Source: Aeromicrobium sp. CnD17-E (GTDB lineage Bacteria; Actinomycetota; Actinomycetes; Propionibacteriales; Nocardioidaceae). Taken from it: 51,891 nucleotides of DNA. The translations under genes were made by a program, and so were the position numbers. The notes under the pieces are model-generated. The model saw nothing but the letters and a program-made list of their open reading frames with translations. It did not search any database and had not been told where the DNA came from. This document shows positions 26,371-44,993 of the stretch, piece by piece (the first letter of the stretch is position 1; every line of letters starts with the position of its first letter). The stretch covers positions 1 to 51,891 of the forward strand of contig NZ_JAMXRU010000013.1 of the NCBI RefSeq assembly GCF_024124745.1. Direction: 5' to 3'.

Positions 26371-29300
26371 ATGACGACGATCCCCCTCACCCCTGGCCAG
26401 GAGGGGATCTGGATCCAGGACTCGCTGGGCCGGGGCGCGGCCTACCACGTGCCCTTCGCCTACGCGATCGGGCACGGCCTCGACCCCGACCGTCTGGTCC
26501 GTTCCGTGGAGACCGTCCTCGACGCCCACGTCGCGTTCCGGATGCGGGTGCGCAGCGAGGGGGGTCGTCCGTTCGGGTGGGCCTCGGAGCCCGGCACCGG
26601 GGCCCGGGTCGAGCGGCGCCGCGTCCACGCGCACGAGGTCGATCGTGTCCTCGACGAGCTGGCGGACCGGCCCTTCGACCTCGCCCACGACCTCCCCGTC
26701 CGAGCGCTGCTGCTCGAGGCGGAGGACCGCCACGTGCTCGCCGTCGTCGTGCACCATCTCGTCTTCGACGACTGGTCCATGGACCTCGTGCTCGAGGAGG
26801 TGGCCCGGTGCTACCGCGACGGGGCCTCCGCGGCGCCGCCCTCGGACGACGAGATCCTGCCCACCCACCTGCGCGCCTGGCAGGAGGAGCTCCAGGCACG
26901 TGGTCCGGGACGGGACGACCGGATCGCCCGACGCGCACGGGCCTTCGCGGACCCGCCGGCACGGCTCGACCTCCCGCGTCGCGACACGAGCGGGAGCGGT
27001 CCCGACGTCGGTGGCGCACACGCCACCTCCACGGTCGACCTCGCGACCAGCGCCGCGGTCCGCGACCTGGCCGCCGCCCACGCCTGCACGGAGTACGTCG
27101 TGCACCTCGCTGCCTGGGCGACGCTGGTCGCCTTCCACGGCCAGCACGACGACGTCGCCGTCGGCACCCCCCTCGCGCAGCGGTCCCGTCCCGGCGCGGG
27201 CGACCTCGTGGGCTACTTCCTCGACACCCTGGTGGTCCGCCCACACCTCCCGGGGCACCGGACGTTCGACGACGTCGTGGAGTCCACGCGGGACGCGTTC
27301 TTCGCCGCGCTCGAGGCCTCGACCGAGATGGCGTACGAGGAGGTGGCGCGCGCGGTCACGGGCCGCGAGCCGGACGGGCCGCTCTTCACGGTCTGGTTCG
27401 CCTGGCAGCCCCCCGGTGACGGTCTCGTGCTCGAGGACGTCGCGGACGTACGACGGATCGACCTGCCCACGCGGACGGCGAAGTTCGACCTCGCCCTCTT
27501 CGTCGAGCCGACGGACGAGGGCCTGCGCCTGCACCTCGAGCACCGCGCCGACGCCGTCGACACCGCCACGGCGGAGTCGCTGCTGCGACGCTACGGTCGC
27601 CTCCTGCGGGAGGTCACCGGGTCGCCCGGCACTCCCCTTGCCCAGATCGACCTCCTCGACGACGCCGAGGAGCGCCGCCTGCTCGACCTCGGCCGAGGTC
27701 CGGACGCCGGACGGGGCCCGGTCGCCCACCAGCTCGACGAGCCGATCCTGCGCTGGGCGCGCGCCCGGCCGGACGACCCGGCCGTCCTGCACGAGGGGCG
27801 GACGACCAGCTACGCCGAGCTCCTCGACCAGGCGTCCCGGTGGACCGCCGCCCTCGTCTCGCGCGGGGTCGCCGTCGGTGACGTCGTGGGGGTGTCCGTG
27901 CCCCGTTCGCCCGACATGGTCGCGGCGGTCCTCGGCGTCCTCGGCGCGGGCGCAGGCTACGTCGCACTCACGCTCGACCATCCCGCAGCGCGTCTGCGTC
28001 ACGTCGTGACGGACTGCGCCGTCCGGGTGGCGCTCACCGGCGAGGACGTCGGAGTCCTTCCTGCGCTCGGCGTCGAGACCATCGACCGCCCAGCCCTCGA
28101 CGAGGCGCCGCTCCCGGTACCCGAGGTCGCGAGGAGGCCCGCGGGAGAGGCCCTCGCCTACGTCACCTACACGTCCGGCTCGACCGGGCGACCGAAGGGC
28201 ATCCGCATGACCCACCAGGCGGTGGGGAACCTGCTCGACTGGCAGGAGCGGACCTACCCCGGGATCGGGGCCGGCGACCGGACGCTGCAGTTCGCGTCGC
28301 TCGGCTTCGACGTGTCCGCGCAGGAGATCTTCGGGACGCTGCAGACCGGCGGCACGCTCGTGCTCATCAGCGAGGAGCAGCGCGACGCGGTCCACCAGAC
28401 GATGCGTCTGGTGCAGGAGCACGAGGTCTCGAGGCTGTTCATGCCCGCTCCCGCACTCCTGGAGGCGACCGCTGGGGCCGTGGCGCAGGGTGTCGCACCC
28501 GCGAGCCTGCGGGTCGTCGTGTCCGGCTCCGAGCAGCTCGTGGTGACCGACGCCCTCCGCGCGTTCTTCCGGTCCGTGCCGGCGGCTCGCCTCCACAACG
28601 AGTACGGACCCAGCGAGACGCACGTCGCGACGATGTACGCCGCTGCGCAGGACCCGGACACGTGGCCGGCGTGGCTCCCGATCGGCGCTCCTGTCGGCGC
28701 CACGTGCGTGCACCTGCTGGACGACCACGGTCGACTGGTGCCCCCCGGTGCCGTCGGGGAGGTGTACCTGAGCGGCCCCGGCCTCGCGCAGGGATACGCG
28801 GGCATGCCGGTCGCCACGGCGCGCGCGTTCGTGCCCCACGCCCGCGGGACTGGACCGGGCGAGCGGGCCTACCAGACGGGTGACCTCGCGCGCTACACCG
28901 AGGACGGTGCACTGGAGTACCTCGGCCGCCGCGACTCCCAGGTCAAGATCCGCGGTTTCCGGATCGAGCTGGAGGAGGTCCGCACCGTGCTCGACGCCGC
29001 CGACGGAGTCGCCCAGGCGTACGTCACGACGCGTGGCGCGGGAGGTCACGCGGAGCTGCTCGGCTACTGGCGGCGGTCCGGCGAAGGTGCGACCACCGAG
29101 GAGGACCTGCGCCGCCACCTCGCGGACCACCTCCCCCCGGCGATGCTCCCCGCCAGGCTGTACGAGGTCGAGAGCTTCCCGCTCACCCCGAACGGCAAGA
29201 TCGACGCGCGTGCCCTCGAGGACCGCTGGGCCCGCACCGACGTCGAGCGCGAGCCCGTCGCACCGGCCGACGATCCACTCGTGGCCGCCGTCGCCAGCAG

Positions 29301-29568
29301 TATCGCGAGCGTCCTGGAGAGGCCCGCCGTCGGCCCGACGAGCGACTTCTTCGACCTCGGCGGCAACTCGCTCCTGGCCAACCGCCTCGTGTGGACGCTC
29401 GCCGCCGACGGTGTCGCTGCGGTGACGCTTCGCGACGTGATGGACGGACGGACGGCCACCGCGATCGCCCACCGCGCCCGACCGGTCGAGGTCGAGACGA
29501 CGCGAGCCGACACCGCGCAGGCGCACGAGCGACTCGACACCCTGATGAGAGACCTGGAGGACGTCTGA
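26371..29568 (+). CDS. NRPS module C-A-T
   Basis: 1065 aa. The condensation domain (1-430) has VHHLVFDDW at 127-135, so the usual HHxxxDG reads HHxxxDD. The adenylation domain (about 450-945) has YTSGSTGRPKG near 600, FDVSAQE near 646, NEYGPSE near 743 and the catalytic lysine in TPNGKID near 941. The carrier domain has DFFDLGGNSLL near 997. By alignment to GrsA the pocket residues are D, V, Q, F, V, G, E, V, A; the D-V-Q start recalls proline-type codes, but the rest differs. GGAGG precedes the ATG. The tail ERLDTLMRDLEDV is a short acidic helix, perhaps for docking. Confidence 0.92.
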   Translation: MTTIPLTPGQEGIWIQDSLGRGAAYHVPFAYAIGHGLDPDRLVRSVETVLDAHVAFRMRVRSEGGRPFGWASEPGTGARVERRRVHAHEVDRVLDELADRPFDLAHDLPVRALLLEAEDRHVLAVVVHHLVFDDWSMDLVLEEVARCYRDGASAAPPSDDEILPTHLRAWQEELQARGPGRDDRIARRARAFADPPARLDLPRRDTSGSGPDVGGAHATSTVDLATSAAVRDLAAAHACTEYVVHLAAWATLVAFHGQHDDVAVGTPLAQRSRPGAGDLVGYFLDTLVVRPHLPGHRTFDDVVESTRDAFFAALEASTEMAYEEVARAVTGREPDGPLFTVWFAWQPPGDGLVLEDVADVRRIDLPTRTAKFDLALFVEPTDEGLRLHLEHRADAVDTATAESLLRRYGRLLREVTGSPGTPLAQIDLLDDAEERRLLDLGRGPDAGRGPVAHQLDEPILRWARARPDDPAVLHEGRTTSYAELLDQASRWTAALVSRGVAVGDVVGVSVPRSPDMVAAVLGVLGAGAGYVALTLDHPAARLRHVVTDCAVRVALTGEDVGVLPALGVETIDRPALDEAPLPVPEVARRPAGEALAYVTYTSGSTGRPKGIRMTHQAVGNLLDWQERTYPGIGAGDRTLQFASLGFDVSAQEIFGTLQTGGTLVLISEEQRDAVHQTMRLVQEHEVSRLFMPAPALLEATAGAVAQGVAPASLRVVVSGSEQLVVTDALRAFFRSVPAARLHNEYGPSETHVATMYAAAQDPDTWPAWLPIGAPVGATCVHLLDDHGRLVPPGAVGEVYLSGPGLAQGYAGMPVATARAFVPHARGTGPGERAYQTGDLARYTEDGALEYLGRRDSQVKIRGFRIELEEVRTVLDAADGVAQAYVTTRGAGGHAELLGYWRRSGEGATTEEDLRRHLADHLPPAMLPARLYEVESFPLTPNGKIDARALEDRWARTDVEREPVAPADDPLVAAVASSIASVLERPAVGPTSDFFDLGGNSLLANRLVWTLAADGVAAVTLRDVMDGRTATAIAHRARPVEVETTRADTAQAHERLDTLMRDLEDV

Positions 29569-29569
29569 C

Positions 29570-29758
29570 ATGAGCACCGACGTGACACCGGAGGAGCACG
29601 CCGTCGTGGTCAACCACGAGGAGCAGTACTCCACGTGGCCCACGAGCCGACCTCTCCCTGTCGGCTGGCAGGCCGAGGGGTTCGTCGGCTCGAAGGAGGC
29701 GTGCCTCGACCATGTCGAGTCCGTCTGGACCGACATCCGGCCCGCGTCGGCCCGCTGA
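29570..29758 (+). CDS. MbtH-like NRPS accessory protein
   Basis: 62 aa, a complete MbtH domain: VVVNHEEQYSTWP, PVGW and VWTDIRPAS. It binds adenylation domains and supports their folding or activity. It lies one base after the first NRPS stop codon and 19 bp before the next NRPS gene, so it is co-produced with both. Confidence 0.93.
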   Translation: MSTDVTPEEHAVVVNHEEQYSTWPTSRPLPVGWQAEGFVGSKEACLDHVESVWTDIRPASAR

Positions 29759-29777
29759 TCGAGAGACGAGACCCCTC

Positions 29778-32700
29778 ATGGTGGACCAGACCTCCGTCGT
29801 CGAGCACTTCGCCGCGGCCCTGCAGCGCGACCCCGACGCGGTCGCCGTCGACGGCGTCGACGGCCGGTTGAGCTTCGCCGACGTCGACCGTCGCGCCGAG
29901 CGGGTCCGGCACGAGCTGGAGGCGCTCGGCGTCACGCCCGGCGACCCGGTCTTCCACGTCGGCACGAGAGGTCCGCACTTCGCCGCGGCCCTGCTCGCCA
30001 CCTGGCGGCTCGGGGCGGTCTGGCGGCCGCTCGAGCCCGACGCGGCCCCGGCGCGACACGCACGTGTGGTGGGCCGTGACCGCGGTGCCGTGGCCCTCGT
30101 GATGGGCGGGCCCGACGAGGACCGCGCCCGTGACCTCGGGCTCCGCCCCTTGCGGGTCGACCTCGCGGACCCTGCGGCGCAGGGGACCGCCGGCACCCGC
30201 TCCCCAGGAGCGACCGATGCGGCCTACGTGACCCTGACCTCGGGGACCACCGGCGAGCCGAAGGGAGTGGTCAGCTCGCACCAGGGTCTGGCGCGCCTGG
30301 CGACGCGACTGGCCACCCACCTGCGGCTCGTCCCGGACGACGGGGTGCTCCAGCTCCACCCGTCGTCCGTCGACATCTCGCTCGAGGAGGTCGTCACCAC
30401 CTGGCGCGCCGGGTGCCGCAGCGTTCCCGTGCCCGACGACGTCCGCACCGACCTCGTCGGGCTCGACCGGCACCTGCGCGACCACCGGGTGACGGTCGTC
30501 GACCTGCCCACGTCCCTGTGGATCGTCTGGCTCGAGGCCATCGAACGGGGGGAGGTCCCCCGCCCGCCGACCCACCTGCGGGTGGTCGGCGTCGGGAGCG
30601 AGCCGGTGCCGCGCGACGCGATCGCGCGGTGGCTGCAGACCTGCGGGCCCGGCCCCGCCCTCTACAGCCTCTACGGCTCCACCGAGACCGGCATCACGAC
30701 CCACGCGGCGGGCCCCCTCACGCTCCAGGACGACACCGAGGAAGGCACGCCGCTCGGTCACCCGCTTCCCGGGGTGGTGGGCTACGTGCTGGACGAGTCC
30801 CTGACGCCGGTGGCGGCAGGCGGGCGCGGCCAGCTGTACGTGCGAGCCGACGTCGCCGCGCTCGGCTACCGCCAGGCTCCTGCGGCGACGGCTGCGGCCT
30901 TCGTGCCCGACCCGTTCGCCGTCGAGCCCGGCGGGCGCATGTACGCCACGGGAGACTGCGTGAGCGAGACCGCCACCGGTGCCCTCGTCCACCACGGCCG
31001 GATCGACGCCACGCTCTCGGTCAACGGCTTCTCCGTCCGTCCCGAGGGCGTCGCCCGTGTGCTCGGCCAGGTCCACGGCATCGAGTCCGCCCGGGTGCAC
31101 ACGGTGCGCGAGGGCGGCGTCACGACGCTGGTCGCCGACCTCCAGCCCAGCCCGCCCGGTGACGACGACTGGAGGCCCGTCTACGAGGCGCTCTACGCCG
31201 ACGACCGGACGTCCTACCCTCTCGGTCTCGACGCGACGTCGTGGCTCAGCGCCGTGGACGGCTCGCCCGTGCCGCTCGCGACGATGGAGGCGTGGCGCGA
31301 CGCCGCCGTCGCGCGGGTGCTCGACCTGGAGCCCCGCCGGGTCCTGGAGCTGGGCTGCGGCACCGGGATGGTCCTGCACGGCATCGTGGACCACGTCGAG
31401 CGCTACGTCGGCATCGACTTCGTCCCGGACGTGGTGGAGACCCTCGAGACGCAGGTCCGGGAGCGTGGCGTCCGCGCCTCGGTCGAGCTCCACGTCGGCG
31501 ACATCCGGTCGAGCCTGCCGATCAGGGACGAGACCTTCGACGTCGTCGTGCTCAACTCGGTCGTGCAGTACCTGCGCGGCGGGCGCGAGCTGCGCGCCGT
31601 GCTGGATCGCGCGGCCGCTGCCCTGGCGCCGGGGGGACACGTCGTGGTCGGCGACGTCCGCAACCTCGACCTCGACCCCGCCTACCGCGACTGGCTCGCC
31701 GCCCAACCAGGCTTCTCCCCGCAGGGCGCACGGTCGGGCGCGGAGATCGAGCTGCAGCTGGCACCGCGCTGGTTCCACGACCTCGCCGTGCTGGACGACA
31801 GGCCCGTACGGGTGGCGACGCGGAGCAAGGACGTCGACACCGTCGACGAGATGTCGCTGTTCCGCTACGACGCGGTGCTCGAGCTCGACGCCGACCCTCG
31901 TGCCACCCGCCCCGTCCGCGAGCTCGCCGCAGCGGACCTCACCGTGCATGATCTCCAGCAGCACGTGCAGCCCGGCGCCCCCATCGTGGCGCGTGCCCTG
32001 CCGCGGGGCGCGGGCGTCGCCACGCTACGGTCGCAGGCGCAGGCGCTCGGACTCTCGTGCGAGGCCGCGCCGCACCCGCTGTCGCCCGACCACCTCGACG
32101 TGGTGCTGTTCACGGAGCAGGACCGGGCGGAGGCCGAGGAGGCGCTGGCGACCGTGGCGCGCTCCTACGCGGCGCCCCGCACCGTCAACCAGCCGCAGGT
32201 CGACGACGACTCCACGCTCGTGCACCGCGCCGCGGAGCAGGCACGTGATGCCCTGGCGCCCCACGAGCGCCCCTCGGTCTACCGGGTCGTCCGGGACGGC
32301 ACGCCGGTCGTCGTGCCTGTCTCGCTGCGCACCGAGTCGGCGACCGCCGAGACGGGTGCGGGCAGCACGCCGCTCGAGCGCGAGGTCGCGGCGGTGTGGT
32401 CCGAGGTGCTCGGTCAGCTGCCGGGCCCGGACGACAACTTCTTCGACCTGGGTGGCAACAGCCTGAACCTCGCCCGCGTCCTCGTGCGGCTGCGGTCGCA
32501 GTACTCCACCGACCTCGCGGCCGAGCAGTTCTTCGCCGCCCCGACCGTACGCGGCACCGCCGCCCTGCTCGGCGACGTGCGTCCATCGACCGGCGGGCCC
32601 GAGGACGCGCCGTCGGTCACCACCGGGGGCCGGGACGCGCCCGTCGCCCAGGGCCTCTCCGTCGGCCCCGCGTCCTTCGCGCAGGAGCGGCTGTGGCTGC

Positions 32701-35426
32701 TCGACCAGCTCGCCCCGGGCTCCCGGGCCTACCACTCACCCTTCGTGTTCGACGTCGACGGCGAGGTCGACGTCGACGTGCTGGAGCAGGCGGTCCGCGC
32801 CGTCGAGCAGACGCATCCCGCGCTCCGAACGGCACTGCGCATGGTCGACGGCACGCTGCAGCAGCAGGTGGTCGAGAGCGCAGCAGCCGAGAACCCCACG
32901 ACGGTGACCCGGGTCGACGCGACCGTCGCGGACGACCGGTCCGGCCTGTCCGTCGGGGAGCAGGCGTTCGTCGACGTCCCGTTCGACCTCTCCTCCGGAG
33001 CGCTCCTGCGGGTGGGCGTCCTTCCCCGAGCCAGCGGCGGGACCCGGATCCTCTTCGTCCTGCACCACGTGGCCGTCGACGAGCTGTCCCTCGGCCGGCT
33101 GTTCGACGACGTCGCCTCGGCCTACACCGCCATCGCCCGCGGCACGACGCCCCGACTGCCCACGCCAACGGTCAGCTACCTCGACGCAGCGATCCACGAG
33201 CGGTCGTCCGGCCCGGCGCGGACGGCGGGGCGGACGTTCTGGCACGACCTCCTCGCGGGAGCGCCGACCGCGCTCGACCTCCCCGTCGACCGCACGACCG
33301 CAGTCCAGCGCAGCGGGCGCGGCGCACGCCGACCCGTCCCACTCGGGTCCGACGCTCTCCGCCGCGCGGAGGCGTCCGCGCGACGCGAGGGCCTGACGAC
33401 CTACCAGTGGTGGTTCGCGTTGTTCTCGCTGTTCCTCGCACGTGAGTGCGGCGCAGACGACCTCGTCGTGGGAGCACCGAGCGCCAACCGGCCGCCCGGC
33501 ACGGAGGACGTCGTCGGCTTCTTCGTCAACACGTTGCCCGTGCGCTGCCACCGACCGACGAACCCGACCGTCTCCGACCACCTGCGCAGCACCGCCCGCG
33601 AGCTGCTCGCCGCGCAGCAGCACGAGGACGTCCCGCTGCAGGAGGTGCTCAGGGACCTCGGCGTCGGTCGCAGCGCCGACACGAACCCCCTGTTCCAGAC
33701 GATGGTCGTGCTGGAGCCGGCCGAGCCGCTGACCATGCGCCTCGACACCCTCGAGGCCGTGGCCTTCGACCTGCCGGAGTCGACGTCGACGATGGACCTC
33801 ACCCTCGTCGTCCGGCCCACGCCGGGCGACCCACGCATCCACCTCGTGCACGACCTCGACGTGGTGTCCGAGGAGGAGGCGGAGCGCATGGCCACCACGT
33901 TCGCGCTCCTGGTGGACGCGGTGCTCAGCGATCCGGAACGACGTTGCCTCGACCCCGTCGACCTGCCCGACGACCTCGCCTCGGTGCTCGGGGGCGGCGA
34001 TGGCGACGTCCCCTCCCGCACCGTGGCCGAGGCCTTCCTCGACGGTGCACGGGACCATCCTGAGGCGACGGCCGTGGTCTCGGGTGGCCGTTCCGTCACG
34101 TACGGCGCGCTGCGCGACCTCGTGGCCGACGTCGTCGGCCGGCTCCGCGAGGCCGGTGCCGTACCGCCACTGGTGCCTGTGGTCCTCCCGTCGTCGCCCG
34201 AGCTCGTCGCGGCGATGCTGGCGGTCAACACGGCGGGCTCGGCGTTCGTCCCGCTGGCGCCCGACTGGCCCGCCGCGCGACTCGAGCGGGCCCTGGAGAA
34301 CATCGGCAGCCCGGTCGTCGTCGGGGACGAGGAGGTCCTGTCGGCTCTCGACGGCTCGCGGACCGTCGTCACCGTGCCTCGACACGCCCGCCCGACCCCG
34401 CCGTCCGGACTCGCGGCCTCGTTCGTCGGCGCGCTCGACGAGCCCATGTACGCGATGTTCACGTCCGGCACGACGGGCGAGCCGAAGGCGGTGAAGATCG
34501 CTCACCGGGGCGTCCTCAACCGGCTCGCGTGGATGAGTCAGGAGCTGGGTACCCGAGCAGCCCGACGCGTGCTGTGGACCACCGCCCCGCAGTACGACAG
34601 CATGGTCTGGGAGTCCCTGTGGCCGCTGACGCTCGGCGGCGCGACCGTCGTCGGCGACCCGACGCTGCAGGCGAGACCGGAGGCGTTCTGCCGCTCCGTG
34701 GCCGAGCACCAGGTCTCCACCATCGACCTCGTGCCCGGGGTCCTGCGCGGTCTGCTCGAGCACGCCGCGCACGACCCAGCGGCCGCGTCGATGCTGCGGG
34801 CGCTCGAGGTCGTGGTCGTGGGCGGCGAGGAGCTGACCCCAGGGGTCGCAGCCCTCCTCCCGCGGCTCGACCTCGGGGCGCGGTTCCTCAACCTCTACGG
34901 CCCCACGGAGGCCACCATCGGCTCCGTCGCCCATGAGCTCCACCCCTCCGAGCACGGCGACGTGCCGATCGGGCGACCGATCACGAACACCTCCGCGGCC
35001 GTCCTGGACGAGCACCTCCAGCCGGTCCCGCGGGGCGTGCGGGGCGAGCTCGTGCTGGGCGGCGCCTGCGTCGGGCTCGGGTACCACCGCGACGCCGCCC
35101 GCACACGAGCGCGCTACCTGGACCACCCGTCCCTGGGCCGTGTCTACCGCACGGGCGACCTCGCCCGCGTGCGCCGCGACGGGTCGCTCGCGTTCCTCGG
35201 ACGCGATGACGACCAGCTGTCCATCAACGGTGTCCGCGTCGAGACCGCCGAGATCGTCCGCGCCCTGGAGGACCTCGACGGCGTGGCCGACGCGGGCGTC
35301 ACGTCCGTGTCCCTGAAGAACGACGTCCTGCGCCGCCTGGGCACGCACCTCGCCGCCCGGTCCACCGACCCCGAGCTGCACGACCTGCTCGACTCGATCC
35401 TCGACCAGCTGGAGACCGACACGTGA
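29778..35426 (+). CDS. NRPS: A(N-MT)-T-C-A(N-part), ends inside an adenylation domain
   Basis: 1882 aa. It opens with an adenylation domain (TSGTTG near 154, VDISLEE near 198, YGSTE near 299) interrupted near 470 by a SAM methyltransferase (LELGCGTG near 524), then degenerate A9-A10 without the NGK lysine, a carrier domain (FFDLGGNSLN near 890) and a condensation domain (HHVAVDE near 1096). A second adenylation domain follows (TSGTTGEPK near 1562, YGPTEA near 1708, GRDDDQLSINGVR near 1808). It stops after A8, without A9, A10 or a carrier; these lie two genes downstream. Pocket residues read D, I, E, D, V, V, L, I, T for the first and D, S, W, D, V, G, L, I, G for the second. The second shares D..DVG.I with arginine codes. 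The ATG at 29778 is set by the domain start. The stop overlaps the next gene as GTGA. Confidence 0.92.
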   Translation: MVDQTSVVEHFAAALQRDPDAVAVDGVDGRLSFADVDRRAERVRHELEALGVTPGDPVFHVGTRGPHFAAALLATWRLGAVWRPLEPDAAPARHARVVGRDRGAVALVMGGPDEDRARDLGLRPLRVDLADPAAQGTAGTRSPGATDAAYVTLTSGTTGEPKGVVSSHQGLARLATRLATHLRLVPDDGVLQLHPSSVDISLEEVVTTWRAGCRSVPVPDDVRTDLVGLDRHLRDHRVTVVDLPTSLWIVWLEAIERGEVPRPPTHLRVVGVGSEPVPRDAIARWLQTCGPGPALYSLYGSTETGITTHAAGPLTLQDDTEEGTPLGHPLPGVVGYVLDESLTPVAAGGRGQLYVRADVAALGYRQAPAATAAAFVPDPFAVEPGGRMYATGDCVSETATGALVHHGRIDATLSVNGFSVRPEGVARVLGQVHGIESARVHTVREGGVTTLVADLQPSPPGDDDWRPVYEALYADDRTSYPLGLDATSWLSAVDGSPVPLATMEAWRDAAVARVLDLEPRRVLELGCGTGMVLHGIVDHVERYVGIDFVPDVVETLETQVRERGVRASVELHVGDIRSSLPIRDETFDVVVLNSVVQYLRGGRELRAVLDRAAAALAPGGHVVVGDVRNLDLDPAYRDWLAAQPGFSPQGARSGAEIELQLAPRWFHDLAVLDDRPVRVATRSKDVDTVDEMSLFRYDAVLELDADPRATRPVRELAAADLTVHDLQQHVQPGAPIVARALPRGAGVATLRSQAQALGLSCEAAPHPLSPDHLDVVLFTEQDRAEAEEALATVARSYAAPRTVNQPQVDDDSTLVHRAAEQARDALAPHERPSVYRVVRDGTPVVVPVSLRTESATAETGAGSTPLEREVAAVWSEVLGQLPGPDDNFFDLGGNSLNLARVLVRLRSQYSTDLAAEQFFAAPTVRGTAALLGDVRPSTGGPEDAPSVTTGGRDAPVAQGLSVGPASFAQERLWLLDQLAPGSRAYHSPFVFDVDGEVDVDVLEQAVRAVEQTHPALRTALRMVDGTLQQQVVESAAAENPTTVTRVDATVADDRSGLSVGEQAFVDVPFDLSSGALLRVGVLPRASGGTRILFVLHHVAVDELSLGRLFDDVASAYTAIARGTTPRLPTPTVSYLDAAIHERSSGPARTAGRTFWHDLLAGAPTALDLPVDRTTAVQRSGRGARRPVPLGSDALRRAEASARREGLTTYQWWFALFSLFLARECGADDLVVGAPSANRPPGTEDVVGFFVNTLPVRCHRPTNPTVSDHLRSTARELLAAQQHEDVPLQEVLRDLGVGRSADTNPLFQTMVVLEPAEPLTMRLDTLEAVAFDLPESTSTMDLTLVVRPTPGDPRIHLVHDLDVVSEEEAERMATTFALLVDAVLSDPERRCLDPVDLPDDLASVLGGGDGDVPSRTVAEAFLDGARDHPEATAVVSGGRSVTYGALRDLVADVVGRLREAGAVPPLVPVVLPSSPELVAAMLAVNTAGSAFVPLAPDWPAARLERALENIGSPVVVGDEEVLSALDGSRTVVTVPRHARPTPPSGLAASFVGALDEPMYAMFTSGTTGEPKAVKIAHRGVLNRLAWMSQELGTRAARRVLWTTAPQYDSMVWESLWPLTLGGATVVGDPTLQARPEAFCRSVAEHQVSTIDLVPGVLRGLLEHAAHDPAAASMLRALEVVVVGGEELTPGVAALLPRLDLGARFLNLYGPTEATIGSVAHELHPSEHGDVPIGRPITNTSAAVLDEHLQPVPRGVRGELVLGGACVGLGYHRDAARTRARYLDHPSLGRVYRTGDLARVRRDGSLAFLGRDDDQLSINGVRVETAEIVRALEDLDGVADAGVTSVSLKNDVLRRLGTHLAARSTDPELHDLLDSILDQLETDT

Positions 35427-36277
35427 ACGACGACAGCACCGACAGGTCCCTGCGCGCGCGTCAGGTGCGCCGACGGCTGCGAGACGTCGAGATCACCCTC
35501 GAGTTCCTGCGGTCCTCCTACATCGGCGCGCCGCGCGGGGAACAGCGTCACTGGGTGACGAACCGCGCCGTCGACGAGCTCGTGGAGCAGCTGCACCACC
35601 TCGACCTCGTCGCCCCCGACTTCGTCGGCAGCGACACCCGACGCGCCATCAGCCCGGGTGCGTGGGAGAAGAGCGACGCCACCTACGTGGACGGCCAGCT
35701 GCTGATCGAGGACCAGCAGGTGATGCAGGACTGGGAGATCCCGCTCATGCGCCGGATGGCGGAGGTCGTGACCGCCTCGCACGGTGACGTGCTGGAGATC
35801 GGCTTCGGCCTGGGGCTCTCGGCGGGCTTCATCGAGGACTGCGGCGTGCGGTCCCACACCATCGTCGAGCTCAACGACCGCGTGGCCGAGGTGGCCCGCG
35901 ACTGGGCGGCCACGCGCCCCCACGCGGACATCGAGGTGGTGTCGGGCCACTGGCAGGAGCAGGTGCCTCGGCTCGGCCTCTACGACGGGGTCTTCTGGGA
36001 CGCCTTCCCGACGAGCGAGCAGGAGTTCGACGAGTTCGTCCTGCGCGACTCCACCGTGGCGGAGGCGTTCTTCCCGGCCGCAGCCAGTCGGTTGCGTCCG
36101 GGTGGCGTCTTCACCTACTACACCAACGAGCGCGACTCACTCAGCCGGCGACACCAGCGCAGCCTCCTGCGCTACTTCTCCTCCTTCGCCGTCGAGGTCG
36201 TGGACGGACTGGCTCCGCCACCGGACTGCGAGTACTGGTGGACCGACTCCATGTGCGTCGTCACGGCGGTGAAGTGA
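35423..36277 (+). CDS. Guanidinoacetate methyltransferase-like SAM methyltransferase
   Basis: 284 aa. Class I SAM methyltransferase most like the guanidinoacetate N-methyltransferase family. SAM loop EIGFGLGLSAGF near 124-135; the acids that hold the guanidine in GAMT are present as Glu105 (QVMQDWEIPLM) and Asp152 (IVELND). The motifs VFWDAFPTSEQE, LRPGGVFTYY and the ending PPPDCEYWW-MCVVTAVK also match the family. The expected reaction is methylation of a guanidine nitrogen, perhaps of an arginine residue. It is a free-standing gene exactly where an adenylation domain is broken between A8 and A9. The N-terminus is a basic helix (RSLRARQVRRRLRDVE). Starts and stops overlap with both neighbours. 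Confidence 0.85.
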   Translation: MNDDSTDRSLRARQVRRRLRDVEITLEFLRSSYIGAPRGEQRHWVTNRAVDELVEQLHHLDLVAPDFVGSDTRRAISPGAWEKSDATYVDGQLLIEDQQVMQDWEIPLMRRMAEVVTASHGDVLEIGFGLGLSAGFIEDCGVRSHTIVELNDRVAEVARDWAATRPHADIEVVSGHWQEQVPRLGLYDGVFWDAFPTSEQEFDEFVLRDSTVAEAFFPAAASRLRPGGVFTYYTNERDSLSRRHQRSLLRYFSSFAVEVVDGLAPPPDCEYWWTDSMCVVTAVK

Positions 36278-36900
36278 TGGGGGTCTCGATCGAGCAGTTC
36301 GTCGAGCGCCTCGGCGAGCTCGAGCCCGGACGGACCTTCCGCGCGTGGGAGCTGCTGACCGGGGAGCGTGTGCCGACCGTGCCCGTGGCCTACGTGGTCC
36401 CCGCACCTTCGGCAGATCTCGACGCCCTCGAGGTCCGACGACAGCTGCTCTCCACGCTGCCGCGCTCGAGCGTACCGGCGCACGTCGCGATCCTGCCCGA
36501 GGTGCCCCGCGACGCGCAGGGCAAACGTGACCGGGCCGCGCTGGCCCGCCTCGTCGATGCACAGGTGAGCGCGCCCCCGCCGCCCCCGCCGGCGACGACC
36601 TCCGTCGACCCTCTCGACCAGCTCGTCCGAGCGGTGTGGTCGGCGCACCTGCCGGGCACCGCGGCCACCGACGACGTCGACTTCTTCCGCTCCGGCGGCG
36701 ACTCGCTCACCGCGATCCGCGTGGTGAGCGCGTTGAACGAGGCGCTCGGCAGCTCCATCGCGCTGGTCACGCTGTTCCGCTTCCCGCGCACGGACCTCTT
36801 CACGACGCACCTGAGGACGGAGCCGACGGCCACCGGCCTCGCGCCGGAGGTCCTCCTGGCACGCGCCGCCGACACCGCCCCGCCGACGAGCGAGGTCTAG
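36277..36900 (+). CDS. NRPS fragment: adenylation C-terminal part plus carrier domain
   Basis: 207 aa. Residues about 30-105 match the mobile C-terminal subdomain of an adenylation domain: AYVVPAP, LPRSSVPAHVAILPEVPR and the A10 lysine in DAQGKRDRAAL. After a proline-rich linker (APPPPPPATT) comes a carrier domain with DFFRSGGDSLTAIRV; Ser near 142 takes phosphopantetheine. It has no catalytic core of its own, so it must work with the adenylation N-part ending the 29778-35426 gene. The ATG overlaps the methyltransferase stop as TGATG; an in-frame GTG one codon earlier is possible. Confidence 0.85.
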   Translation: MGVSIEQFVERLGELEPGRTFRAWELLTGERVPTVPVAYVVPAPSADLDALEVRRQLLSTLPRSSVPAHVAILPEVPRDAQGKRDRAALARLVDAQVSAPPPPPPATTSVDPLDQLVRAVWSAHLPGTAATDDVDFFRSGGDSLTAIRVVSALNEALGSSIALVTLFRFPRTDLFTTHLRTEPTATGLAPEVLLARAADTAPPTSEV

Positions 36901-36903
36901 TCG

Positions 36904-39900
36904 ATGGCGCTGCACGAGCAGTTCGAGTCGCTCCCGGCGGCCCGTCGCGCGACGTTCGTGGAGCGGGCGCTCGACGACCCCGTCACACGCGCCGCGATCA
37001 CGCCGTCCGCGGTGCAGGAGCGGATGATCGTGATGTCGTCCTGGAGCGGTGGTGCGGCGGCCTACAACCTGTCGACCGCCACCCGGTTCGACGGTCCGCT
37101 CGACGTGGTGGCCCTGCACGAGGCGTACCGACGGCTGCAGCTCCGGCACGAGCAGCTCACCCGGCGCTTCGTGCACCACGAGGGCATGCTGCTCGCCCTG
37201 CCGGGCGAGCCCCGGGAGGCCCGGCCGGTCCTCGACGTGGCGATCCCCGCCGAGGACCGGCCCGACGATGCACGCCGTCGGGCCCGCGCCGCCGCCGCGA
37301 CCCCCTTCGAGGTGCTCGGCGCACCGCTGACCAGGCTCCAGGTGGTGCGCTACGACGCCACCGACCACCTCGTCCTCCTCGACGTCCACCACGCCGTGGC
37401 GGACGGTCGGTCGCTCGAGATCATCGACCGCGACCTGGCCCGCTGCTACGACGACGCGCGCCGCCGGCTCGACAGCGTCTGGCCGGCACCGGCAGGACGC
37501 TACGCCGACTACGTCCTCGGGGAGCAGCAGGCCGAGCGGGACCAAGGCACCGAGCAAGCCTTGCGCCGCGTCCTCGACCGGCTCGCGGGCGCACCGGCGC
37601 TCCTGGACCTCCCCACCGACCGGCCCCGTCCGTCGACGCAGGACTTCGCGGGGGCCACCGTCGTGCGCGAGCTCGACCCTCGGACCAGCGCGGCACTCCT
37701 GCGACTGGCCCAGGCGGCGAGGACGACGCTCTTCTCCGTCGGGCTCGCGCTGTTCGCCGACGCGATCCGCCACACGAGCGGTCAGGACGACCTCGTCGTC
37801 GGCGTCCCGGTGCTCGGACGCCCCTCGCTGGGGCTCGACGACGTGGTCGGCATGTTCGTCAACACCGTCCCGGTCCGCCTCGACCTCACCGGGACGACCG
37901 TCCCCCGTGCCGTCGCCCGGCGCGTCCACGACGCCTGGGTCGACGCGGTGGAGGACCAGCTGGTGCCACTCGACGCCGTCGTCGACGCGGTCGGGGCCGA
38001 TCGTGACGCGAGCCGACCCCCCGTCTTCCAGGTGACCTTCGCCCTCGCCGAGGACACCGGGGAGCGGGCTGCGTGGCCGGACCTCGTGGCCGAGCCGGTC
38101 GAGGTCGACGGCGGGAGCGCGAAGTTCGACCTCGCGCTCACCCTGCACCGGCGGGGCGACCGCCTGCGTCTGGAGCTCGAGCACGCCACCTCCGTCGTCG
38201 ACCGCGCCTCGGCCGATCGTGTGCTCGACCTGGTCCAGCTGCTCGCCGACGCCGCCACGCAGGACCCCGACGACGACGTCCGCGGCCGCTTCCGCCACCT
38301 CCCGGGAGCACTGCCCCAGACCCCCGCCTGGGACACCGAGCGAGTCGACGTCGAGCTGCCGGCCGCGGACCACGTGTGGGACCTGGTGCGCGCCGCGGCA
38401 CGCCGCACCCCGGAGACCGTGGCCGTGCGCACGGCCACGACCTCGCTCACCTACGCCGGGCTCGTCGGACGCGCTGGGGTGCTGGCCCGCCGCCTGCACG
38501 CCGAGGGCGTGGCCCCCGGTTCGCGCGTCGGCGTGATGCTGGCGCGCTCCGAGGAGCTCGTCCCGGCGCTGCTCGCGGTCTGGGCCCACGGCTCCTCCTA
38601 CGTGCCCCTCGACCCGACCTACCCGACCGAGCGGCTCGCCTTCATGCTGCGCGACGCGGGATGCCGGGCCCTGCTCGTCGACGACGCCGTCCCCGAGCCC
38701 CTCGGCGAGGTGTGCGACCCGATCGACGTGCGCAACGCAGTCGGACCGACGACGGACGACCTCCCCGTCACCCAGGTCACGGCCGAGCACGAGGCCTACC
38801 TGCTCTACACCTCCGGGTCGACCGGCACGCCGAAGGGCGTGTCGATCCCGCATCGCGCCGTGCTGGCGATGGTCCGAGGGTCGCTGCAGGTCTTCGGCAC
38901 CGCGCCGCTGCGTCGCTCCCTCGCCGCGACCTCGATCTCCTTCGACGTCTCCACCGTCGAGCTGTACCCGACCCTGTCGACAGGTGGCACGGTGCACCTC
39001 GTCGACTCCCTGCTCGACGGCCCCCGCGAGGTCCCGGCGTCGACGTTCACCGCCGGTGTCCCCACGCTCCTGTCGGCCGCGCTCGACATCGGGTCGCTCG
39101 ACGTCTCCGGCATGGTCGTGGCGGCAGGTGGCGAACCCCTGCCACGCAGCCTGGTCGAGCGCCTGACGGCCGCCGGCGCGCAGCGGGTGGTCAACATCTA
39201 CGGGCCCTCCGAGGACTGCACCTACTCGACCGCAGCCGTCGTGGCCGCCGGCGAGGCGCCACCGATCGGATGGGCCGTTCCCGGCGGGCGGGCGTACGTC
39301 CTCGACCGCGACGGCTACGTGGTGCCTCCCGGCGCGGTCGGCGAGGTCCACCTGGCCGGCGCCGGGCTCGCCGACGGGTACGCGAGCCGCCCACGGCTGA
39401 CCGCCGAGCGGTTCGTGCCCGACCCCGTCGGGGACGAGCCGGGCGGACGCTGCTACCGCACCGGCGACCTGGCGCGGCTACGGCCGGACGGTGCACTCGT
39501 CTACCTGGGACGCTCCGACCGCCAGGTCAAGGTCAACGGGCTGAGGATCGAGCTCGGCGAGGTGGAGGCTGCGCTGCTCGCCTCACCGGGCGTCACCTCC
39601 GCCGTCGCGCTGGTGCAACGGGACGCTCGGTCGGCGCGCCTCGCCGCTGCCGTCACGGGGGACGTCGGACTCGACCCGCGGGCGTTGCGTCGCGACCTGG
39701 CCCGACGGCTCCCCCGAGCGCTCGTCCCCGCCGTCGTCGTGCCCGTCGACTCGCTCCCGCGTCTGGCGAACGGCAAGACGGACGTCACGGCCGTGCGCGA
39801 CCTCCTGCCGGCGTTCGGGACCTCGGTCCGGACGACCTCCGAGCCGCCGCCGACGGCGGTCGGCACGCAGCGTGAGGACGACGACGCGGAGCGACTCGTG

Positions 39901-41430
39901 CGCGAGTGCTGGATCGAGCTGCTCGGGTCCAGTCACGGAGGGGACTTCTTCGCCGAGGGCGGGACGTCGCTCACGGCCCTGCGCCTGGCACTGCGACTGA
40001 CCGACCGCTCCGGCACGCGCGTGACCCTCGCAGACGTCTTCACCGGGCGCACGGTCGAGGCGCTCGCCGTCCACGTCCGGGCCCGACCGAGGCCGGCCTC
40101 GGGGCCGGCGATCCGCACGGTGCCTTCCCAGGACCCCGTCGTCCTGTCACCCGCCCAGCAGTCCCTCTGGTGGGTCGAGGCGGCCCAGGACGTCGGCGCC
40201 GCCTACGTCATACCCCTGGCCTGGCAGCTCGAGGGGCCGCTCGACGAGCACGCGCTCGCGGCGGCCGTCGAGGCCCTGCAGTGGCGCCATCCGCTGCTGC
40301 GGCACCGGATCGACCCCGCCGCCATGCCGCCGGCCACCCGACCCGGGCCACCGACCCCGCTGCGGCGGGGCGAGCCGCTCGGCCCGAGCGACCTGCAGGA
40401 GCGGTTCCGGTCCTTCGCCGACGCACCGCTCGACGTGCACGGCGGACAGCCGCTGTTCGTCGCGGAGCTGTGGCCACGCGACACCAGGAACAACGCTCTC
40501 GCGCTGAAGGTCCACCACCTCGTCGCCGACGGCTGGTCCCTCGGCGTGGTGGCCGAGGACCTCGCCGAGCTCTACGCCCGGTGCCGCAGGGACGCCGTCG
40601 CGGTGCTCGCGGACGTCCGCCGGCACGAAGGACACTCCGTGACCACCAGGTCCTGGGACCCGACCGAGCTCGCCGACCTCGTGCGACGTCGTGCCGACGC
40701 CCTCGATGGCGCGCCGACCGTGCTGCACGTCGGATCGCTCGATCGCCCCGCCCGCCGTGCCTTCGTGGGCCGTGCCAGCGAGCACGACCTCGGCGTCGAC
40801 GCGGCGCGGGCCCTGACGACGCTGGCCCGTCGTGCCGACAGCACCGTCTTCGTCGTCGGCTCCCTGGTCCAGGCCCTCACGCTCATGTCCCTCACGGGTG
40901 AACGCGACCTCCTCCTCGGCACGCCGGCCAACGGGCGCGACGACCCCAGCCTGGAGCGCGTCGTCGGCATGTTCGTCGAGACCGCCGTCCTGCGCGTCCA
41001 CGCAGCGGACGACCCGGCGATCATCGACCTCGCCCTGGCACACGCCCGCCAGGTGCTCGACGTGACGAGCGCGCCGGTGCCGCTGGCCTCGCTCGTCGAC
41101 GCCGCGGCGCCGGAACGTCGACCGGGCACCAACCCGCTCGTGCAGGTGCTGTTCGCGCACGACCACGGCGCGGGTACCCCGCTGACGCTCGACGGTCTCC
41201 GGGTCACCCCCGTCACGGCACCTCAGGACACGTCCAAGTTCGACCTCTTCGTCACGCTGGACACCAGTGACGACGGCGCACGCCTCGTCGTCGAGCGTGC
41301 CGCGGACGCCCTCACGGACGAGGACGTCGCGCAGCTCGTCGACACCTACCGTCGGGTCCTCCTCGCAGCCGCGCTCGACCCCCACGCGACCGTCTCGACG
41401 ACGCTCGCCACAGCAGGACAGGACGCATGA
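36904..41430 (+). CDS. NRPS module C-A-T followed by a terminal C domain
   Basis: 1508 aa. First condensation domain (about 30-440) with canonical HHAVADG near 162; adenylation domain (about 470-965) with LYTSGSTGTPKG near 637, FDVSTVE near 680, IYGPSEDCTY near 766 and ANGKTD near 956; carrier domain with FFAEGGTSLTALR near 1019; second condensation domain (about 1075-1500) with HHLVADG near 1205. No thioesterase or reductase domain follows, so release is by the terminal condensation domain or through another carrier such as the one at 42650-42874. The ATG is three bases after the previous stop; the stop overlaps the exporter start (ATGA). Confidence 0.93.
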   Translation: MALHEQFESLPAARRATFVERALDDPVTRAAITPSAVQERMIVMSSWSGGAAAYNLSTATRFDGPLDVVALHEAYRRLQLRHEQLTRRFVHHEGMLLALPGEPREARPVLDVAIPAEDRPDDARRRARAAAATPFEVLGAPLTRLQVVRYDATDHLVLLDVHHAVADGRSLEIIDRDLARCYDDARRRLDSVWPAPAGRYADYVLGEQQAERDQGTEQALRRVLDRLAGAPALLDLPTDRPRPSTQDFAGATVVRELDPRTSAALLRLAQAARTTLFSVGLALFADAIRHTSGQDDLVVGVPVLGRPSLGLDDVVGMFVNTVPVRLDLTGTTVPRAVARRVHDAWVDAVEDQLVPLDAVVDAVGADRDASRPPVFQVTFALAEDTGERAAWPDLVAEPVEVDGGSAKFDLALTLHRRGDRLRLELEHATSVVDRASADRVLDLVQLLADAATQDPDDDVRGRFRHLPGALPQTPAWDTERVDVELPAADHVWDLVRAAARRTPETVAVRTATTSLTYAGLVGRAGVLARRLHAEGVAPGSRVGVMLARSEELVPALLAVWAHGSSYVPLDPTYPTERLAFMLRDAGCRALLVDDAVPEPLGEVCDPIDVRNAVGPTTDDLPVTQVTAEHEAYLLYTSGSTGTPKGVSIPHRAVLAMVRGSLQVFGTAPLRRSLAATSISFDVSTVELYPTLSTGGTVHLVDSLLDGPREVPASTFTAGVPTLLSAALDIGSLDVSGMVVAAGGEPLPRSLVERLTAAGAQRVVNIYGPSEDCTYSTAAVVAAGEAPPIGWAVPGGRAYVLDRDGYVVPPGAVGEVHLAGAGLADGYASRPRLTAERFVPDPVGDEPGGRCYRTGDLARLRPDGALVYLGRSDRQVKVNGLRIELGEVEAALLASPGVTSAVALVQRDARSARLAAAVTGDVGLDPRALRRDLARRLPRALVPAVVVPVDSLPRLANGKTDVTAVRDLLPAFGTSVRTTSEPPPTAVGTQREDDDAERLVRECWIELLGSSHGGDFFAEGGTSLTALRLALRLTDRSGTRVTLADVFTGRTVEALAVHVRARPRPASGPAIRTVPSQDPVVLSPAQQSLWWVEAAQDVGAAYVIPLAWQLEGPLDEHALAAAVEALQWRHPLLRHRIDPAAMPPATRPGPPTPLRRGEPLGPSDLQERFRSFADAPLDVHGGQPLFVAELWPRDTRNNALALKVHHLVADGWSLGVVAEDLAELYARCRRDAVAVLADVRRHEGHSVTTRSWDPTELADLVRRRADALDGAPTVLHVGSLDRPARRAFVGRASEHDLGVDAARALTTLARRADSTVFVVGSLVQALTLMSLTGERDLLLGTPANGRDDPSLERVVGMFVETAVLRVHAADDPAIIDLALAHARQVLDVTSAPVPLASLVDAAAPERRPGTNPLVQVLFAHDHGAGTPLTLDGLRVTPVTAPQDTSKFDLFVTLDTSDDGARLVVERAADALTDEDVAQLVDTYRRVLLAAALDPHATVSTTLATAGQDA

Positions 41431-43918: not shown

Positions 43919-43966
43919 GGAGCGACCCTTCTGCCAGGACGCGCCCACCTGACGCCCCCGAGTGTG

Positions 43967-43989
43967 GAGTGGACTCGACTACCTTAGAT
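43967..43989. promoter_or_regulatory. Overlapping divergent promoter candidates
   Basis: GAGT-GG-ACTC (43967-43976) is a palindrome next to overlapping -10-like hexamers: TAAGGT on the minus strand (43986-43981) and TTAGAT on the plus strand (43984-43989). They would serve the peptidase/carrier transcript and the oxygenase. No -35 was identified with confidence. Confidence 0.3.
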
Positions 43990-44048
43990 CGCGGAGGCGT
44001 CTCCTCCTCGCCGCGTGCGCACCGGGACGCCACGACGATCGGGGGATC

Positions 44049-44993
44049 ATGAACGACCACGTCCGCGAGCACACCACGATGGAGCGCGCGAGCATCGAGC
44101 GGATCGAGCTGTCGGAGCAGGAGCGACACCAGGTCGCGATGCTCGCGACCGAGCTGGCTCCCGCCTTCGTCGGGGGGCAGTCGCCCCTGCCGACGCGCCT
44201 GCTCGGCGAGGCTGCAGGCCGGCTGCCGGCCCGGCTGGTCGCCGAGGTCGCGCAGGTGCGCGAGCGTCGCCTCCCCCACGCCTGCGTCGTCTCCGGTGCG
44301 CCGCTGCTCGCGGAGCGTCTCGAGCCCACGCCGCAGCACTGGCGCGAGGCCCAGACGGCGGGCTCCGTCGTCCACGCGTGCGTGCTGCTGCTCGTCGCCG
44401 ACCTCCTCGGCGAGTCGTTCGGCTGGGCCTCGCAGCAGGACGGTCGCGTCGTCACCGACGTGGTGCCCTCACCGGGGCAGGAGGACTCGCTCGTGAGCTC
44501 GTCGAGCCGCGCCGAGCTGGCCTGGCACACCGAGGACGCCTACTTCGAGCAGCGCGCGGACTTCGTCGGCCTCTTCTGCCTGCGCGCGGCGACCGGCGGC
44601 GCCACCACGGTGTCCTTCCTCGACCCCGCGCAGCTGTCGGCGGACGTCGTCGAGGTGCTCCAGCAGCCACGTTTCCTGCTGCGGCCCGACGACGCCCACG
44701 ACGTCCACCCGGACGACCTGGCGCGCACCTGGCTGGTCGACCCGTCCGACGCACGCAGGATCCGCGTCGACCGCGACTTCACCGACGCCGTCGCCGACGA
44801 CCCGGAGGCGGCCCGCGCGCTCGACGACCTCGTCGAGGTCCTCGACGCCAACCTCCAGGACCTCCCCCTCGCCCCCGGCGACATCGCCTTCGTCGACAAC
44901 GCGGTCGCGGTGCACGGTCGGCGCTCGTTCACGCCGCGCTTCGACGGGACGGACCGCTGGCTCAAGCGCGTCAACGTGAGGACGAGAGCGTGA
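44049..44993 (+). CDS. VioC/AsnO-like Fe(II)/2-oxoglutarate amino-acid hydroxylase
   Basis: 314 aa. Clavaminate-synthase-like family that includes arginine and asparagine beta-hydroxylases of peptide antibiotic pathways. The iron triad is His160 and Glu162 in WHTEDAYFEQRADFVGLFCL, and His289 in NAVAVHGRRSF; the His-x-Glu (not Asp) form is typical of this group. The ending PRFDGTDRWLKRVNV carries the 2-oxoglutarate arginine. It probably makes a beta-hydroxy amino acid for the peptide. GGGGGATC precedes the ATG; a second in-frame ATG lies at 44079. Confidence 0.87.
   Translation: MNDHVREHTTMERASIERIELSEQERHQVAMLATELAPAFVGGQSPLPTRLLGEAAGRLPARLVAEVAQVRERRLPHACVVSGAPLLAERLEPTPQHWREAQTAGSVVHACVLLLVADLLGESFGWASQQDGRVVTDVVPSPGQEDSLVSSSSRAELAWHTEDAYFEQRADFVGLFCLRAATGGATTVSFLDPAQLSADVVEVLQQPRFLLRPDDAHDVHPDDLARTWLVDPSDARRIRVDRDFTDAVADDPEAARALDDLVEVLDANLQDLPLAPGDIAFVDNAVAVHGRRSFTPRFDGTDRWLKRVNVRTRA

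Follow-up and report, generated by a model that had tools for sequence, protein, structure and literature searches.

The stretch of DNA analysed here (the window) comprises 51,891 nucleotides (nt) of Aeromicrobium sp. CnD17-E, contig NZ_JAMXRU010000013.1 of a draft assembly of 219 contigs. It carries a nonribosomal peptide synthetase (NRPS) cluster in which the second adenylation (A) domain of one gene, A2, is divided over two genes with a methyltransferase (MT) gene between them. We consider it probable that the three polypeptides make up a naturally split, functional A domain, interrupted between motifs A8 and A9. This is based on the gene layout, on a cut that lies inside the small C-terminal subdomain of A2, on the active-site residues that are kept and on the recurrence of the split in relatives. 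Gene 1 would give the A core along with the opening part of the C-terminal subdomain, and gene 3 the remaining subdomain (A9, and A10 with the catalytic lysine) together with the carrier domain. For the three-protein system we infer complex formation, methylation site and substrate as follows: the two subdomain halves would pair to form an active A domain, which would load gene 3's own carrier, and the gene 2 product, an MT related to guanidinoacetate methyltransferase (GAMT), would sit at or near the cut and methylate the amino acid, most likely when carrier-bound and probably on a side chain of basic, perhaps guanidino, type. The features concerned are:

29712..35426, forward strand: gene 1 (NRPS), 1904 amino acids (aa); by Pfam, first A core (A1), MT (Methyltransf_25), peptidyl carrier protein domain (PCP), condensation domain (C) and A2 core with A8
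34047..35255, forward strand: A2 core through A8, gene 1 residues 1446-1848
35256..35423, forward strand: tail after A8, 56 residues (1849-1904), with the first part of the C-terminal subdomain and an LDxLE-type segment
35423..36277, forward strand: gene 2, free-standing GAMT-related MT, 284 aa, GTG start
36277..36900, forward strand: gene 3, 207 aa; N-terminal helical segment, second half of an A-domain C-terminal subdomain (A9/A10), PCP
36523..36525, forward strand: codon of the A10 lysine, K83 of gene 3, invariant in five of five aligned sequences
36703..36705, forward strand: codon of the PCP serine, S143 of gene 3 (GGDSL), invariant in five of five aligned sequences

A sequence-only reading of this DNA had described one A domain spread over two genes around an MT gene, and the open reading frames (ORFs), their domains and the recurrence in relatives support that description. 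The Pfam scan of gene 1 shows neither AMP-binding_C nor a second PCP, leaving A2 without A9/A10 or a carrier in the gene that ends at 35426, as had been said; the complete 284-aa MT gene and the tight junctions, a GTGA overlap between genes 1 and 2 and a TGATG overlap between genes 2 and 3, are likewise present. Two statements held in part. Gene 1 was said to stop right after A8; the motif is there, but 56 further residues follow, a length counted by hand on an alignment with four relatives (L002, L003, L019 and L020, introduced below). Gene 3 was taken for the A9/A10 subdomain; it does hold A9/A10, the lysine and the carrier, but only the second half of the C-terminal subdomain.

The gene 1 tail is common to the relatives. 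Its LDxLE-type segment leads into the MT in those where the MT is fused to the A core, and D1898 and E1901 are invariant in the five aligned sequences (the window and the four relatives). Once the tail is linked to part of gene 3, the AMP-binding_C match becomes near-complete, at 33.2 bits over profile positions 5-76; as controls, the gene 3 part alone reaches 23.7 bits (28-76) and the reversed tail plus gene 3 reaches 22.5 bits (27-76). By these scores, therefore, the break falls inside the small C-terminal subdomain of A2, and a single fold would have to form from two proteins. The equivalent stretch of L002 gives a faint AMP-binding_C match at positions 1-18 (E 0.13), and in the gene 3 counterparts of the four relatives the matches begin at positions 15 to 27.

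The whole of gene 3 matches AMP-binding_C over positions 23-76 of 76 (E 5e-4; 21.4 bits, under the Pfam cut-off of 24.5) and PP-binding with an E value of 4e-9. A failure of gene 3 to model as the C-terminal part of an A domain had been named as grounds for giving up the idea; the protein aligns with NRPSs of solved structure over their A-subdomain/PCP part (best 6lta, E 1e-15), and NRPS structures rank first in the structure search with its model. The query-normalised TM-scores of that model are low, 0.27-0.38 among the 50 matches listed, perhaps because a flexible linker places the predicted PCP elsewhere.

Relatives of the MT were found by a contig scan, which gave L002 (a Nostoc sp. S4 metagenome-assembled genome, MAG) and L003 (an Acidobacteriota MAG), and by genome searches, which gave L019 (genome G949, from the phylum of L003's genome), L020 (G1234, from the genus of L002's) and L021 (G1262, from the order of L002's). 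Of these five full-length relatives, four are joined to an A core (two of the Nostoc genus, two from Acidobacteriota) and L021 is free-standing. In all four joined cases the MT follows A8 in the same ORF, the ORF then stops, and a separate gene carries A9/A10 and the carrier; the A core and MT are fused in these four, with the A domain itself still split in every one. Their MTs are 43-48% identical to that of the window, with the same cut and the same gene order, and close their gene with a WWADSM stretch near the C-terminus, while the downstream genes have a short helical-looking start followed by A9/A10 and PCP. The window differs in having A core and MT on separate genes. Because the four relatives carry A9/A10 and the carrier on a gene of their own, an assembly artefact is an unlikely cause of the A-domain split. 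As a separate observation, the Acidobacteriota split A domain at L003:1357-9810 holds radical SAM and B12-binding domains inside the A core before A3, with the GAMT-related MT after A8.

The three ORFs lie in three frames, and a plot of GC by codon position shows the coding frame shifting at about 35423 and again at about 36277; third-position GC is strong in all three, and all are intact. Upstream of 35423 the MT frame is open for 71 codons, and no other ATG, GTG or TTG occurs across them. A Shine-Dalgarno-like GGAG stands 8 nt before the GTG start, which alone is mild support, because 4-nt Shine-Dalgarno cores also lie 5-15 nt upstream of 31 of 239 ATG/GTG triplets within two NRPS genes. The ATG of gene 3 has no such core 5-15 nt upstream. 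It is from the overlaps only that we infer 1:1:1 synthesis of the three proteins. Programmed frameshifting at the gene 1/gene 2 junction was also considered and set aside, a simple scan of 35351-35450 for XXXYYY runs having given none. For gene 1 we used the first ATG of the ORF, which overlaps the MbtH-like gene; the real start may be later (e.g. 29778). The Shine-Dalgarno-like element and the neighbouring genes are:

26371..29568, forward strand: upstream NRPS gene, C-A-PCP
29570..29758, forward strand: MbtH-like protein gene, just 5' of gene 1
35411..35414, forward strand: GGAG, Shine-Dalgarno-like, before the MT gene
36904..41430, forward strand: next NRPS gene, C-A-PCP-C, beginning 3 nt past gene 3

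By sequence and by model, the MT belongs with the GAMTs, as relatives. A phmmer comparison with PDB sequences returned the GAMT entries 1xcj, 3orh, 1p1b and 1khh (E 9e-23 to 5e-21; best 1xcj, E 9e-23, covering residues 80-234), and the match after these has an E value of only 0.3. The five best Foldseek matches of its AlphaFold model in the PDB are all GAMT chains, with 3orh best (E 4e-11). No Pfam family was matched at E <= 0.01, and NCBIfam gave a faint polyamine aminopropyltransferase match of 24 bits against a cut-off of 304. In the phmmer alignment E105 and D193 of the MT face GAMT residues Glu45 and Asp134, which we take to be the substrate-binding pair; a literature search on the role of these two residues returned nothing. 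Much of its N-terminal extension of about 90 aa recurs in the five full-length relatives.

The specificity codes of the A domains were read by hand from a motif alignment, with the final K assumed from A10. The window A2 code is DSWDVGLIGK; those of the relatives are DVEDLGCISK (L002), DVENIGAITK (L019), DPENIGHIDK (L003) and DSASIAEVWK (L020). DVEDIGAIEK is listed with Arg in the anabaenopeptin synthetase, and close variants with Arg plus Lys or Tyr, in the portion of the published account drawn on here (PMC5311044), and the L002 and L019 codes look Arg-like. Together with the GAMT-related MT, the Arg-like codes suggest a basic, perhaps guanidino, side chain for the predicted A2 substrate. 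Code position 278 and MT position 105 may be paired: they read D-E in the window and L002, N-Q in L003 and L019, and S-Q in L020 (n=5). The L020 member may act differently, given His at the D193 position and its other code; seen by itself, this Nostoc-genus MT (L020:1378-2274), with His at the Asp134 equivalent and a different A code, may be inactive or functionally changed.

Guanidino methylation by the MT is suggested by indirect pointers, namely the Arg-like codes of L002 and L019 and an amidinotransferase-like gene near the free-standing L021. Compared with PDB sequences, that ORF, near L021/L029, resembles the amidinotransferases SxtG (E 1e-161) and AGAT (E 1e-93). The neighbourhood is also of interest in its own right: at L029:7694-13375, on the strand opposite to the MT relative, the SxtG/AGAT-like ORF is accompanied by a KamA-family radical SAM gene, a class III aminotransferase gene and an EamA transporter gene.

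Matches to the MT were counted in genome samples that overlap and most of which are draws from larger groups. In the window's genus, four of 49 genomes have matches at E <= 1e-3. Those in three genomes are weak (E 6e-6 to 1e-4), and the window's own genome alone gives a strong one; around that genome the counts are 1/149 in the family, 1/362 in the order and 1/396 in the phylum. For G443, a Nostoc MAG, two of 386 genomes in the phylum have a match (one fused to an A core), as do two of 53 in the genus, both fused. In its order, at E <= 1e-30, there are eight among 291: one A-core fusion (L002's genome), one full-length free MT (L021) and shorter GAMT-like proteins, among which it was the surroundings of L017 that were studied. 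For G444, an Acidobacteriota MAG, the phylum gave 2/247, both fused; the class of G949 gave 1/38 and the family of G1262 1/10. Beyond these, viral contigs (seven loci), plasmids (two records) and phages (one record) gave partial and more distant GAMT-like matches only.

In a tree of 17 MTs, the MT of the window and the four fused MTs form one group (89/88), which L021 joins (97/98). The tree does not settle whether the MT broke away from a fused ancestor or was free at the outset, because a clade of the four fused MTs alone is compatible with the data (p-AU 0.244). The split of the A domain itself is probably older than the detached MT, or independent of it, since it is common to the window and the four fused relatives.

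Several points weigh against a functional three-protein A domain with a guanidino-methylating MT. The gene 1 tail alone has no Pfam match at E up to 10, and the models are modest, with a mean pLDDT of 66.9 for gene 3 and of 52.7 for the MT, which is weak over residues 1-103. A detached MT beside a split A domain was seen in the window's genome only. The position of E105 is Glu in three and Gln in three of six aligned MTs, and that of D193 is Asp in five and His in one, and some members may therefore not be guanidino methylases. The window A2 code keeps Asp at 278 and lacks Glu at 239, and it is not the Arg code. The amidinotransferase-like ORF near L021 is one case, on the opposite strand with the EamA transporter gene between, and matches no Pfam or NCBIfam family at E <= 1e-5. 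Finally, L017 is a 238-aa GAMT-like frame beside an NRPS gene in which both A domains have AMP-binding_C in the same chain; it shows that a distant free GAMT-like gene can lie near an NRPS without any split of the A domain.

That last case also bears on the alternative that survives best, although we regard it as unlikely: the MT could be a free pathway enzyme that acts on a free amino acid or a released peptide and contributes nothing to the A domain. GAMT works as a free enzyme, one-chain A domains adjoin the distant GAMT-like L017, likewise free, and the full-length relative L021 stands with no NRPS gene among the 13 ORFs scanned with Pfam (of 14 longer than 120 aa) on its 17 kb contig. Yet all four relatives with an A core in the same chain have the MT fused at exactly this place, and gene 1 of the window retains the tail that runs into the MT in those proteins.

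The fusions raise a second alternative, that a one-base deletion error near 35423 hides an A core-MT fusion and that the true layout is the two-gene form. One added base would join the frames of gene 1 and the MT, the genome is a draft in many contigs, and the detached form was seen in this genome only; since all four relatives joined to an A core are fused at this junction, we treat the error as a serious caveat, while judging it improbable. NRPS and linked genes take up 14,919 nt of coding sequence in the window, and the break falls in a linker that measures about 60 nt of this (20 residues, by hand count); it coincides with the GTGA overlap, the GGAG 8 nt upstream and the lack of any other start above in the MT frame, and L021 shows that a free-standing full-length MT of this kind exists.

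The remaining alternatives involve the first A domain of gene 1. A1 likewise has an MT after A8. Gene 1 residues 651-960 (window 31662-32591, after the A1 MT and through the PCP) gave no AMP-binding_C match even at E up to 10, and the place expected to hold A10 has, when read by hand, the letters DGTPVVVP, with no lysine. A1 may thus be without a working C-terminal subdomain in cis. The cluster already having one odd A domain, without a recognisable A9/A10 half, the module could be decaying, with A2 broken and out of use. We think this very improbable, as against it stand the three intact ORFs with strong third-position GC, the motifs and catalytic residues kept, and the same A-domain split in cyanobacteria and Acidobacteriota. 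Least credible of all is that the half-subdomain of gene 3 serves both cores of gene 1: neither A1 nor A2 shows a recognisable A10 in cis, but A1 is followed by a PCP of its own in the same chain, the AMP-binding_C profile may miss a diverged A1 subdomain, and we know of no precedent for one half-subdomain serving two A cores, although no search was aimed at one.

Some further genes were noted around these loci. Putative hydroxylase genes (TauD or Asp_Arg_Hydrox) occur in the window at 43962-44993, at L031:4760-5827 near the cluster of L020, at L002:10734-11573 near that of L002 and at L032:14940-15920 near the free GAMT-like L017. The IMG/VR viral contigs L010, L014 and L016 encode short stand-alone GAMT-like proteins, 29-40% identical in the matched segments.

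With regard to known systems, the sequence-only reading had held that no described enzyme is built in this way. This claim has to be lowered, because a split A8/A9-interrupted A domain active in trans has already been described, and the four relatives share its two-gene form. In the corallorazine NRPS, as far as the excerpted description goes (PMC11342130), an nMT directly follows A8 in Crz1 and closes that protein, and Crz2 begins with A9/A10; when Crz1.2 and Crz2 were mixed 1:1, the split A domain was active, and only with both proteins present. As the closest precedent, Crz1/Crz2 resembles the window in an A domain cut after A8, an MT at the cut, and A9/A10 with a thiolation (T) domain opening the next gene, and the window fits this type of split, having an A core with A8 on one gene and A9/A10 with a carrier on another. 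In contrast, the MT is fused to Crz1 and ends the A core gene, a trait present in L002, L003, L019 and L020 and absent in the window, where the MT has its own gene. The Crz1 MT, known here by that description, is classed there as a type I nMT of a glycine module, whereas that of the window is GAMT-related, and Crz2 ends in a reductase domain, whereas gene 3 ends after the PCP.

One-chain A domains of the TioS type also have an MT inserted between A8 and A9, in the part of the account consulted (PMC8949500). There, motifs A1-A8, the MT and A9-A10 form one polypeptide and methylation is backbone N-methylation; the window has three ORFs, for three polypeptides, and a GAMT-related MT. GAMT itself (1xcj, 3orh, 1khh) is the best match in sequence and fold, and the equivalents of its residues 45 and 134 are kept in the window MT, which differs from it in the N-terminal extension and the NRPS setting. 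In a literature search limited to open-licence papers, we found neither a detached MT described at an A8/A9 cut nor a GAMT-type MT reported at the A8/A9 position of an NRPS. What is new here is the MT detached from the A core, as a third break, and its GAMT type; the two-gene split was already known.

More tentatively, and at somewhat less than an even chance, the complete system could be a three-subunit adenylation enzyme, with a subdomain built from two proteins and a detachable MT that would bind at the cut and methylate a carrier-bound guanidino or basic side chain. It would then belong to a separate lineage of split A domains, with members in cyanobacteria and Acidobacteriota too, where this side-chain MT accompanies the split.

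The finding indicates that in unrelated bacteria NRPS A domains can accommodate a break within their small C-terminal subdomain, and it offers natural pieces for swapping A-subdomain/carrier or MT units. The naturally detached MT allows a direct test of whether the split A domain needs the MT to fold or work. Finally, the relationship to GAMT suggests a kind of NRPS methyltransferase whose targets may be guanidino side chains.

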